Part shown: one piece after another, positions 19,855 to 23,624 of the stretch | How positions within the stretch are numbered: position 1 is the stretch's first letter | Layout: every line of letters begins with the position of its first letter | NCBI RefSeq assembly: GCF_013912005.1 | Contig: NZ_JACESB010000008.1 | Location: forward strand, 1 to 64,000 | Origin: Brevundimonas sp. | Lineage (GTDB): Bacteria > Pseudomonadota > Alphaproteobacteria > Caulobacterales > Caulobacteraceae | Reading direction: 5' to 3' | DNA: 64,000 nucleotides | Position numbers and translations under genes: made by a program | The notes under the pieces: generated by a model | The model's input: the letters and a program-made list of their open reading frames with translations, nothing else | The model's database searches: none | Told to the model about the DNA's origin: nothing

Positions 19855-20547
19855 CTAGAAGTCGAGGTCGGCGTACGAGGCCGAGGGCTGCACCCCCGGG
19901 AAACGGTCCGTCAGCAGCGGCCGGAAACAGGGCCGCGACTTCAGCTTCATGTACCAGGTCTTCAGGCCCGGCCAGTTGGCCCAGGCGACCTCGCCGAAGT
20001 AGTCGAGCACCGACAGGTGCGCCGCGGCGACGATGTCGGCCTGGCCCAGCCGCCGCCCGGCCAGCCAGTCGCGCTCGGCAAGCAGGCCCTCGAACTGGCC
20101 CAGGTGGGCCCGCAGCGCCTCGCGCCCGGCGCGCAGGGCGCGGGCCTCCGGCGGTCCGAGGCGCAGCAGGGGCTTCTCCATGCGCTCGTGCAGCAGGACG
20201 GCGTCGACCTCGTCGGTGAAGCGGCGGTCGAACCAGCCCACCAGCCGGCGGGTCTCGGCCCGTTCGGCGGGATCGGCCGGCATCAGGAAGGGCTCGCGCG
20301 CGCGATCCTCGAGCCAGCCGAGGATGGCCGCGGTCTCGCACAGGGTCAGGGGGCGGGAGGTCTCGGACACCTGCAGCACCGGCGGCATGCCCGAGGGGTT
20401 CAGCCCCGCCACCGGGCAGCCGGGCTCCCACGGACGGACCGGGGTCTCCTCGAACGCGACCTTCGCCTCGCCCAGCGCCAGCCGGGCCGCACGCGAGCCG
20501 GGATCGAAAGCGAAATGGTAGAGGACGGCGGACATCCGCATGTCCAT
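19855..20547 (-). CDS. Glutathione S-transferase family protein
   Basis: A 230-residue cytosolic protein with a thioredoxin-like N-domain (LYHFAFDPGSRAARLALGE; cis-Pro in MPPVLQ; ETAAILGWLED) and an all-helical C-domain (LAERDWLAGRRLGQADIVAAAHL). The active-site position near the N-terminus carries Ser rather than Cys. Two in-frame ATGs at 20541 and 20535 could also be the start. It lies between the FieF-like CDF and queG in the same direction. Confidence 0.9.
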   Translation of the reverse strand: MDMRMSAVLYHFAFDPGSRAARLALGEAKVAFEETPVRPWEPGCPVAGLNPSGMPPVLQVSETSRPLTLCETAAILGWLEDRAREPFLMPADPAERAETRRLVGWFDRRFTDEVDAVLLHERMEKPLLRLGPPEARALRAGREALRAHLGQFEGLLAERDWLAGRRLGQADIVAAAHLSVLDYFGEVAWANWPGLKTWYMKLKSRPCFRPLLTDRFPGVQPSASYADLDF

Positions 20548-20589: not shown

Positions 20590-21498
20590 TCAGCTCCACG
20601 GGCCCTTGCCGGCGGGCGCCGCGCGCGGGTCCGGGTGGATCAGGATGTCGGCGGCCGGCCACCGCTCCAGCAGCCGGTTCTCCGCCTCGACGAGAATCCC
20701 GTGCGCCTCGGCCAGCGACAGCCCGGGGTCCATGTCGACGTGCATCTGGATGGTCATGACGGGACCGGACAGGCGGGTGCGCAGGCGATGCACCCCGGTG
20801 ATGCGCGGGTCGGACAGCATGGCGGTGGTGATGGCGACGCGATCCGCCTCGGGCGCGGCGCGATCCAGCAGCTGGTCGGCGGCGCCGCGCAGCACGCCGG
20901 CCGCGCCCCAGAACAGCCAGACCGCCACGACCAGGCCGGCGGCCGCGTCCAGCCCCGGCGCGGCCAGCCAGGCGCCCGAGATCACGCCGATCAGAACCAC
21001 GAGGTTGGAGGCGAGATCCGCGGCGTAGTGGGAGCGGTCGGCCTCGACCGCGACCGAGCCGCTGGCGCGGATCGCCCGTCCCTGCCGCCAGATCAGCCAG
21101 CCGGTGAGAAGCATCGACGCCACCACCACGGCGACGGTCCAGTGCCCCGCCGTCACCGGGCGGGGATCGAACATCCGCTGGATCGCCTCCCAGCCGATGA
21201 AGACGGCCGAGGCGAAGACCAGCCCGGCCTGCACCAGCGCCGCCATCGCCTCGCCCTTGCCGTGGCCGAAGCGGTGATCCTCGTCCGGCGGCGCCGCCGC
21301 CCAGCGGACGGCGAAGAAGGTCGCGAGCGAGGCGACCAGATCGAGAGCGGAGTCCGTCAGCGAGGCCAGGATGGAGACCGAGCCGGAGGCGCCGAGCGCG
21401 AAGGCCTTCATCAGGATCAGGACCACCGCCACCCCGACGGACAGGCGGGTGATGCTGCGGGTGGCGGCGTTGGCGTCTTCCACGGCGGCGCGGGTCAT
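20590..21498 (-). CDS. Cation diffusion facilitator, FieF type
   Basis: A second CDF exporter, of the FieF/MntE branch rather than the CzcD branch: the TM2 site is DxxxD ([12 protein letters not shown]) instead of HxxxD, and TM5 has HxxxD (HYAADLASN). FieF-type pumps move Fe, Zn or Mn. There is no His-rich tail. The ATG at 21498 has AAGGG upstream and gives 302 residues; a longer version from 21540 lacks support. Its start is divergent from the HTH/citrate-synthase-like gene, with 123 bp between. Confidence 0.92.
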
Positions 21499-21621
21499 CG
21501 CCGCCCTTGTCGCGGAAAGGCGCGGCGGCGCCAAGAGCATCCGGGATGGTTAGCGGGATCGTCATGAAGTCGCCGCATGTTGGCCGAACGGCGATCGTCG
21601 CCGGGAGGCGGAGGAGCTGGG

Positions 21622-22788
21622 ATGTCGGCGGACGAAGGCCGCTGGATCAGGCGGGGCGAGGCGCTGGGGCGGCTGGGCGTAAAGGCCCAGACGCTCTACG
21701 CCTACGTCAGTCGCGGCCGGATCGCCGCCCGCCCGGACCCCGACGATCCCCGGCGCAGCCTCTACGCCGCCCGCGACATCGCCCGGCTCGCGGGCGCGCC
21801 GGACGCCGGAGATCCGGAGCCGCGGCCGGCGGCGCGGAGCAGCGCGGGCCGGGGCGAGGCCGAGATCTGGTCCTCGGTCAGCGTGATCGCCGGCGAGCGG
21901 CTGTTCTACCGGGGGCTCGACGCCGTGCAGCTGGCGGAGACGGCCACCCTGGAGGACGCCGCCCGGGTGCTGTGGAGCGCGCGCCTCGACAACCCCTTCG
22001 CCCTCACCCGGCCCCGGATCGGCGCGACGCCCGGGGGATCGGCCCGCGCCCGGCTGTTCGCGGCGCTGGCCCGCCGCGCGGACGAGGACGCCGAGACCCC
22101 CGACCGGTCGCCGGCGGCCCTGCGGCTCGAATGCGCCCGCGTGCTGGACGAGGCCGTCGACGCCGTCGCCGGCCCGGGGCCGCGCCTGTTCCTGCACCAG
22201 CGCCTCGCCCGGGCCTGGAAGATCCCCGAGCGCGACGGCCCCCTTCTCCGGCGCGCGCTGGTGCTCGCGGCCGATCCCGGTTTCGACCCGGCCATCGTCG
22301 CCGCCCGGGCGGCCGCGTCCGGCGGCGCCGCCCCGGCCGCCGCGGCCCTGGCGGGCCTGTCGACGCTGGCGGCTTCCGCGGAGGTGACCGGGATGGCGCG
22401 CGCCTCCGCCTGGATCATCGCGGTGCGCCGCCAGGCCTTCGACGCCGCCCGCCGCGCCGCGGAGGCGGGCTCGCTCGAGGGGTTCGGGGACCCCGCCTGG
22501 CCGGCGGGCGATCCCCGCGCCGCCGCCCTGCTGGCGGCCGCGGACCTGCCGCCGGACCTGGCCCGCGCGGTGCGGGAAGGGGAGCTGGCCGCCGGTCGCC
22601 CTCCCGCCTTCTCCCTCGCCCTGGCGGTGACCGCGCGCCGGCTCGAGCTGCCGCGGGAGGGCGCCGCCGACATCCTGATGATCGGCCGGCTGGCGGGCCT
22701 GCTCGCCCATGTGCTCGACCAGATGATCGACGGCTCGCCTATCCGGGCGCGGCTGCGCTATGTGGGGCCCGAACCGGGCGCGCACTGA
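21622..22788 (+). CDS. HTH-fused citrate-synthase-like protein lacking catalytic residues
   Basis: A 388-residue protein with a MerR/excisionase-like helix-turn-helix (about 8-57: [20 protein letters not shown] ... [14 protein letters not shown]) joined to a citrate-synthase fold. By motif alignment with HTH-type citrate synthases, the three catalytic residues are replaced: the LAADHE histidine is Pro219 (LAADPGFD), the GFGHP histidine is Asp290 ([14 protein letters not shown]), and the NxDF aspartate is Ser331 (PAFSLALA). The PRHGG loop is also lost, while the closing RARLRYVG segment remains. It is therefore unlikely to make citrate and may instead be a metabolite-responsive regulator. GAGGAG precedes the ATG; uppP follows after 29 nt. 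Confidence 0.8.
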
Positions 22789-22817: not shown

Positions 22818-23624
22818 ATGGCGGACTGGCTGGCGGCGATCATCCTCGGCCTGGTCGAAGGCCTGACCGAGTTCATTCCGGTGTCGTCGACCGGCCACCT
22901 GCTGCTGCTGGGCCACTTCCTCGGCTTCGAGAGCACCGGCAAGACCTTCGAGATCGTCATCCAGCTGGGCGCGATCCTGGCGATCGTCAGCGTCTACTTC
23001 AGCCGGCTCTGGCGGCTGGCGACGCGCTGGCCGACCGATCCGCAGGCGCGGCACTTCATCATCGGCGTGATCATCGCCTTCCTGCCGGCGGTCCTCGTCG
23101 GCGTCCTCGCCTACGACGTCATCAAGACCATCTTCTTCGAGACGCCGCTGATCGTCTGCATCGCCCTGATCGTCGGCGGGGTGCTGCTGCTGCTGCTGGA
23201 CCGGATGAAGAAGGTCCCGACCTACCTCGACGTGAACGCCTATCCCTTCCGCGTCTACTTCCTCATCGGCCTGTTCCAGTGCCTGGCGATGATCCCGGGC
23301 GTGTCGCGCTCGGGCGCGACCATCGCCGGCGGCCTGTTGCTCGGGACCGACAAGCGGTCGGCGGCGGAGTTCACCTTCTTCCTCGCCCTGCCGACCATGG
23401 GCGGGGCGGTGGTCTACGACCTCTACAAGAACCGGGACGTGCTGGATTTCAGCGACGCCGGGCTGATCGCCATCGGCTTCGTGGTCGCCTTCCTGACGGC
23501 CCTGCTGGTGGTGCGCTTCCTGCTCGACTTCGTCAGCCGGCACGGCTTCGCCCCCTTCGCCTGGTGGCGGATCGCGGTCGGCCTCCTCGGCCTCGCCGGC
23601 CTGGCGCTGACCGGGGCCCTCTGA
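22818..23624 (+). CDS. uppP: Undecaprenyl-diphosphatase
   Basis: Dephosphorylates undecaprenyl diphosphate to recycle the carrier lipid for cell-wall synthesis; also called BacA for bacitracin resistance. The 268-residue polytopic protein keeps both signature regions: [17 protein letters not shown] (Glu, Ser, His) near the N-terminus and [10 protein letters not shown] in the second half. AAGGGG precedes the ATG. It lies 29 nt behind the HTH/citrate-synthase-like gene, so it may share that promoter. Confidence 0.96.

Follow-up and report, generated by a model that had tools for sequence, protein, structure and literature searches.

In MocR/PdxR, BirA and PutA, a DNA-binding domain is joined to a ligand-sensing enzyme fold, which is non-catalytic in MocR. 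One of the closest described systems to the gene analysed here is found in Caulobacter, where, according to the accessible text of Berge et al. 2020 (PMC7083601), CitB, and not CitC, restores an Escherichia coli gltA mutant. The same text gives an identity figure of 37% for CitB, does not call CitC a regulator and makes no mention of MerR or of a helix-turn-helix, and in the accessible part of another study the promoter of CCNA_03757 is a negative control for IscR binding (PMC11475020). In the portions of the literature covered by our searches, we recognised no paper describing a transcription factor with a citrate-synthase fold. The helix-turn-helix citrate synthases (HTH-CS) form a widespread and apparently undescribed family.

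The member studied here lies in a window of 64,000 nucleotides (the whole stretch of DNA that was analysed), directly before uppP and divergent from a FieF-type exporter gene, just where the sequence-only reading had placed it. Its features are given below with their basis in brackets, residues being matched to Escherichia coli GltA by MAFFT and profile-profile alignment.

20590-21498, minus strand: divergent CDF (FieF-type) transporter gene, a syntenic neighbour and unlikely target (profile, synteny)
21549-21579, plus strand: conserved element ahead of the HTH-CS gene, GTTAG-N7-GTCATGAA-N3-GCCGCATG, a candidate for its operator or promoter (upstream alignment)
21622-22788, plus strand: coding sequence of the predicted HTH-citrate-synthase pseudoenzyme, 388 aa (ORF, profile, alignment, model)
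21640-21792, plus strand: winged helix-turn-helix, MerR/HTH_17-like, residues 7-57 (profile, alignment, model)
21793-21861, plus strand: variable, disordered linker, residues 58-80, with pLDDT under 50 at 63-73 (alignment, model)
21862-22785, plus strand: citrate-synthase fold, residues 81-388 (Pfam, profile-profile alignment, model)
22276-22278, plus strand: Pro219, at the oxaloacetate-histidine position, GltA H229 (alignment, profile-profile)
22381-22383, plus strand: Glu254, MAFFT partner of the catalytic H264; the loop is lost and the position uncertain (MAFFT, profile-profile)
22489-22491, plus strand: Asp290, at the H305 position (MAFFT, profile-profile)
22516-22518, plus strand: Arg299, equivalent to GltA R314, 88/88 in clade A (alignment)
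22612-22614, plus strand: Ser331, at the position of the catalytic D362 (MAFFT, profile-profile)
22687-22689, plus strand: Arg356, equivalent to GltA R387, 88/88 in clade A (alignment)
22744-22746, plus strand: Arg375, equivalent to GltA R407, 71/88 in clade A (alignment)
22818-23624, plus strand: uppP, undecaprenyl-diphosphate phosphatase, beginning 29 nt downstream and probably in one operon with the HTH-CS gene (profile, synteny)

The open reading frame, its coordinates and the fold landmarks first read from the letters were all borne out. The Pfam profile Citrate_synt (PF00285) matches the protein with 85.3 bits against a cutoff of 27, and hhalign aligns it with citrate synthase at a probability of 99.2 over 305 columns. 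The AlphaFold2 model, a check that the sequence-only reading had proposed, has a mean pLDDT of 90.6 and a pTM of 0.80; it predicts a mostly helical body outside the HTH and, from its secondary structure, a winged-HTH pattern (helices 11-18 and 22-30, strands 36-39 and 42-49 making a wing at 36-49, and helix 50-56). HTH_17 scores 17.7 bits on the window protein, below the Pfam cutoff of 27, and 27.8 and 28.3 bits on two relatives (L044, L136); the MerR profile stays under its cutoff in all three. Residues 23-31 (QTLYAYVSR) are each at least 0.95 conserved among 123 aligned HTH-CS.

The catalytic residues of citrate synthase are missing. The sequence-only reading had reported three catalytic replacements, two of which, Asp290 for H305 and Ser331 for D362, hold, whereas Pro219 faces not the catalytic H264 but H229, which we take to be the oxaloacetate-binding histidine outside the triad. 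The triad is lost all the same: the GPxHGGAN loop carrying H264 is gapped for the window protein in the profile alignment, in agreement with the earlier claim that the PRHGG loop had disappeared, and MAFFT offers Glu254 in its place. On the NCBIfam profiles for active citrate synthases, the window protein scores far under the cutoffs; judged by its sequence, it is a pseudoenzyme. By contrast with these losses, the three arginines that we presume to bind oxaloacetate in GltA (R314, R387 and R407) are all present, as Arg299, Arg356 and Arg375, a clamp that the sequence-only reading had not mentioned. Its proposal of an intact substrate pocket thus stands for the clamp arginines and fails for the oxaloacetate histidine and the H264 loop. 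In citrate synthase, the GPxHGG loop contacts CoA. Because both this loop and the oxaloacetate histidine are gone and the pocket is kept in part only, a citrate-like carboxylate would be a likelier ligand than acetyl-CoA, which had also been put forward for the suspected metabolite sensor.

The loss of the triad is shared by a whole clade. Among 131 same-genus genomes, 93 gave matches; six of these, which hit a different citrate synthase at just 25-27 bits, were discounted, which leaves 87 with the gene (fragments included) and 44 without a detected copy (the six counted as lacking), so that the gene is dispensable. What we call clade A consists of 88 rows, namely 74 full-length same-genus orthologues together with members of genera g14, g3 and g7 and L021 (g9). 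The branch separating it has an SH-aLRT value of 100 in a quick IQ-TREE phylogeny of 91 rows (35 of 76 same-genus and 9 of 25 class rows) with SH-aLRT support only. The main alignment and the counts derived from it leave out duplicate loci (L002, L003, L016, L050, L055, L057, L058), fragments (L004, L040), copies split between frames (L134, L135), an odd long frame (L082) and a PrpC (L051). Among the 74 same-genus orthologues, H264 is kept in none, H305 in five and D362 in four, all three being lost in 68, and R314 and R387 occur in 74/74 and R407 in 67/74. Across clade A, H264 is found in 0/88, R314 and R387 in 88/88 each, R407 in 71/88 and the oxaloacetate histidine in 26/88; given these last two figures, the pocket could be altered or empty. 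The clade has settled on no single replacement at any of the three triad positions, and the catalytic columns belong to the more variable ones (H264, D362 and H305 rank 16, 48 and 56 of 308), with minimum numbers of changes on the tree of 2 for H264, 8 for H305, 4 for D362, 1 for R314, 0 for R387 and 7 for R407. Orthologues retaining the triad, which the sequence-only reading would have taken as a sign of local decay, were found outside clade A, where the 29 other relatives of the family carry either His-His-Asp (26) or His-Gln-Asp (3); yet the first catalytic histidine is lost throughout the clade, and not by local decay. The three with Gln for His305 (L039, L053, L065) possibly illustrate a first step of loss.

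Selection maintains this catalytically degenerate protein. Among 14 chosen pairs, the 12 that were computable, 10 of them from clade A, gave dN/dS values (NG86) of 0.024-0.243 over the whole gene and of 0-0.11 over the HTH, which is also the most conserved part within the genus (mean column identity 0.79, compared with 0.40 in the linker and 0.68 in the body). Several residues (R132, E155, G186-R188, Q193, R197, R269 and R339) are near-fixed in clade A and not in the 29 relatives, which points to a change of function and not to its decay. Two same-genus copies (L134, L135) are split between frames, indicating that the gene is sometimes lost.

Gene order relates the window protein to a two-gene arrangement that we take to be ancestral. 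Its fieF neighbour, gene order and tree position place it in the HTH-CS (CitC-type) family. Most triad-bearing HTH-CS of the window's taxonomic family (22 of 29: 26 with His-His-Asp and 3 with His-Gln-Asp among the 29) are arranged head-to-head with another citrate synthase, which has no HTH, and one of the seven unpaired loci (L064) is at a contig end. This HTH-less partner (CitB type; L037, L044 and the other paired loci) reads His-His-Glu in all aligned rows, and in our alignment Bacillus subtilis CitA also has Glu at the catalytic Asp position. The partner in L044 (genus g22, which we infer to be Caulobacter, as g1 would be Brevundimonas) is 36.4% identical (126/346) to PDB 2c6x, presumably B. 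subtilis CitA. As this value comes close to the 37% published for CitB, CitC would by elimination be the HTH-CS, and the pair is most likely the Caulobacter citB/citC pair. A sample of 385 genomes of the class contained 41 with a full-length HTH-CS, 37 of them outside the family. The 26 loci retrieved outside the family included 25 readable ones (L201 gave no ORF); the triad is intact in all 25, and a divergent citrate synthase lies within the 1.5 kb flank in 19.

The surroundings of clade A are different. No citB or other citrate synthase was seen in its flanks, examined over 1.5-5 kb, beyond which partners would be missed. In the window's genome, citB is missing from both locus and genome, and the only citrate synthase besides the window protein is CitA. 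In 13 of the 22 paired loci, fieF is found on the far side of citB, the full order queG< fzlA< fieF< citB< >HTH-CS being readable in eight of them. In clade A, fieF adjoins HTH-CS except in six rows (four contig ends, L032 and L034). At its other end, the HTH-CS gene is followed directly by uppP in all same-genus rows (77/77, always co-directionally and with a median gap of 27 nt), in every g14 row but one (10 of 11, the eleventh being a contig end) and in the one row each of g3, g7 and L021; at paired loci, uppP occurs only in L037 and L061. In 20 of the 44 same-genus genomes lacking HTH-CS, all those examined, fieF and uppP are direct neighbours. The gene for the FtsZ-binding protein FzlA sits beside fieF in the window (19855-20547, minus strand; NCBIfam 358.7 against 300), so that one locus unites division and lipid-carrier genes with citrate-synthase-like ones. 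In L041, L042, L045, L047, L063 and L072, fieF is preceded by a conserved stretch resembling GAGTCGTTCTCGCTGGGG, which may be a terminator or some other signal.

A palindromic site, TCAAnnTTGA (often TCAATCTTGATCAA-N4-ATCAA), lies upstream of the relatives' HTH-CS genes. It is exact in 39 of 48 other-genus loci, compared with 0.06% of mononucleotide shuffles; the upstream set omits L084 and L089, where no start codon was found, and includes L040, L082, L134 and L135. All 22 family loci paired with a citrate synthase have it exactly, as do 24 of the 25 outside the family (one mismatch in the other) and 11/11 g14 rows, whereas none of the six triad-bearing partnerless loci with readable flanks does (L048, L052, L053, L054, L065, L069). 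The site is nearly unique in the genome beside the relatives' HTH-CS gene: allowing one mismatch, the 23-mer TCAANNTTGATCAANNNNATCAA has a single occurrence in each of 9 genomes out of 18 chosen, and among the 390 genomes of the family it turns up in 179 (twice in three, once in the others), against one match for the backwards control. Among the matches listed and placeable, 117 of 123 sites fall 2-46 bp upstream of an HTH-CS match on the same strand, distances being counted to where the protein match begins and not to the start codon, and listed sites without a known HTH-CS coordinate being set aside; the other six are one-mismatch strays. Similar sites even precede members of a second branch only some 28-38% identical to the window protein, which would fit a reading of TCAAnnTTGA by the near-invariant helix TLYAYVSR.

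In the window's own genus, only 7 of 75 clade-A rows have TCAAnnTTGA (it is absent in 68). The window promoter lacks it (best match with 4 mismatches), and the recognition helix is unchanged. The weakest link for the window member is therefore the operator. A 31-bp element at 21549-21579 is a putative operator of the window protein on sequence grounds, although it may belong to another factor. The 19-bp core of this element has one exact match and one more with one mismatch in the window's genome. We rejected the GTCAYSAAANNGCCNCATG element as a proven operator: inspection by eye shows no clear palindrome, its consensus is found within 4 mismatches in only 56/75 genus rows, and in L098 and L101 a related element stands beside a TCAAnnTTGA site. 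A search for a wider regulon in the window's genome gave no clear signal (GTCAANNTTGAY at 5 places, with strand counts of 4+4 versus 2+2 in the control), and a sigma-70 and terminator scan found none. As for the genes controlled, the sequence-only reading had named uppP and fieF. The former, always co-directional with HTH-CS in the genus, gains in likelihood together with the HTH-CS gene itself, and the latter becomes less likely, given the interposed citB in 13/22 paired family loci and the absence of the upstream element (best 3-5 mismatches) from the 20 HTH-CS-less genomes mentioned above; this absence separates the two targets incompletely, as the element may have disappeared together with the gene. 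The window protein would probably control its own gene and uppP rather than fieF.

The second branch has lost its triad as well. It comprises an HTH-CS type found in 8 of 390 genomes, 43-100% identical to L136 (the next match is at 37%). In the six members aligned, the triad is lost in 6/6, and R314, R387 and the oxaloacetate histidine are kept in 6/6 and R407 in 5/6. By Pfam, a TonB-dependent receptor gene adjoins all eight, divergently in seven and co-directionally downstream in L250, and at five loci that divergent gene run also includes CitMHS (TIGR00784, 490-525 bits against 259.7). An AtuA-family gene and an MFS transporter gene were confirmed in two of the other three loci, L250 looking alike by eye only; the AtuA-family gene accompanies the TonB/transporter genes at L248, L249 and L251. 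A search of 14 genomes (the eight carriers and six others) yielded six citMHS copies in five genomes, all carriers, with five copies at second-branch loci and none in the window's genome. TCAAnnTTGA is exact at five of the eight loci and has one mismatch in L250, and L251 and L253 show no clear copy. As its oxaloacetate histidine is eroded, the ligand of the window protein is less certain than that of this citMHS-linked branch.

With a probability of roughly 0.68, we interpret HTH-CS as a family of citrate-synthase-based transcription factors, and the window member as a ligand-responsive, citrate-synthase-derived regulator acting on its own promoter and uppP. The sequence-only reading had already proposed a dead enzyme with a DNA-binding head acting as a regulator, and this gains support from the clade-wide loss of the triad, the purifying selection, the HTH as the most conserved part and the nearly unique site beside the relatives' genes. 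The citrate-synthase fold is dimeric. A winged HTH on each subunit of such a dimer would bind DNA at the gene's own promoter, and the former active site, non-catalytic and equipped with the clamp arginines, would bind a citrate-like di- or tricarboxylate and thereby change DNA binding. The divergent citB would have been lost from the window's locus and genome, leaving a regulator whose present target is probably the unit it forms with uppP. We infer DNA binding, dimer, ligand, direction of regulation and the operator role of the window's own upstream element from sequence and comparative data.

An unlikely alternative would keep the DNA-binding autoregulator and dispense with the ligand, the citrate-synthase body being a dimerisation scaffold whose arginines are retained for structure. 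R314 and R387 could indeed make structural contacts, and the missing oxaloacetate histidine and first catalytic histidine loop would fit such a scaffold, but it is difficult to see why two of the three clamp arginines should be invariant when the catalytic columns rank with the more variable ones, or why the sister branch should keep the oxaloacetate histidine in 6/6 members and stand beside citMHS in 5/8 loci. That the gene is a functionless CitC relic in slow decay since the loss of citB seems to us highly improbable: a dN/dS well below 1, a near-invariant HTH, new clade-specific conserved residues and a constant position before uppP (77/77) all speak against it, even though the catalytic columns drift freely, 44 of 131 same-genus genomes have no detected copy, L134 and L135 are split between frames and the relatives' TCAAnnTTGA has gone from most of the genus.

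The chance is just as slim that the protein is a regulatory subunit forming a heteromer with a citrate synthase (CitA or CitB), its HTH being a protein-contact module. Such a partnership is suggested by the second citrate synthase that triad-bearing relatives adjoin, in 22 of 29 cases within the family and in at least 19 of 25 beyond it; however, the flanks of the degenerate clade showed no citrate synthase, the window's genome has CitA only, and the nearly genome-unique site beside the gene would be left unexplained. Least probable of all is an enzyme of another chemistry using other pocket residues, which the retained fold and clamp arginines might accommodate and for which the superfamily offers a precedent in citryl-CoA lyase (weak NCBIfam matches), but which agrees poorly with the lost GPxHGG loop and with triad positions at which the clade conserves no single replacement.

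The ligand-responsive regulator that we favour can be extended to a wider scenario, which we hold tentatively, at somewhat less than even odds. HTH-CS would be citrate-sensing factors throughout the Alphaproteobacteria, with a whole citrate synthase as sensor; CitC proteins would be trigger enzymes controlling the neighbouring citrate synthase; and pseudoenzymes would have arisen twice in one family, one by citrate-uptake genes and the other, that of the window, tied to uppP. If this is true, the window member would link the TCA cycle to lipid-carrier recycling, and a role would be proposed for CitC, the Caulobacter paralogue that was inactive as citrate synthase in the 2020 complementation test. 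The graded series from intact to partial to full triad loss, together with a nearly genome-unique site, would also make the evolution from enzyme to sensor directly testable.

Compared with known systems, the window protein has in common with GltA, PrpC and the CitA of B. subtilis and Mycobacterium tuberculosis the fold, the GD-PR-A motif, the clamp arginines and the C-terminal motif, and differs from GltA, PrpC and CitA by the loss of the triad and of the GPxHGG loop and by the added HTH. Caulobacter crescentus CitC (CCNA_03758), with CitB (CCNA_03757), is probably the corresponding HTH-CS/citrate synthase pair, whose g22 members keep both His-His-Asp and the partner, whereas the window protein has neither. 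It resembles MerR-type and HTH_17 regulators in its helix-helix-wing-helix head and, in its relatives, in the inverted-repeat site, but it lacks the usual MerR effector region and remains below the curated cutoffs. From MocR/PdxR, BirA and PutA it differs in that its sensor fold would be that of citrate synthase, which would thus join the few enzyme folds turned into DNA-binding sensors.
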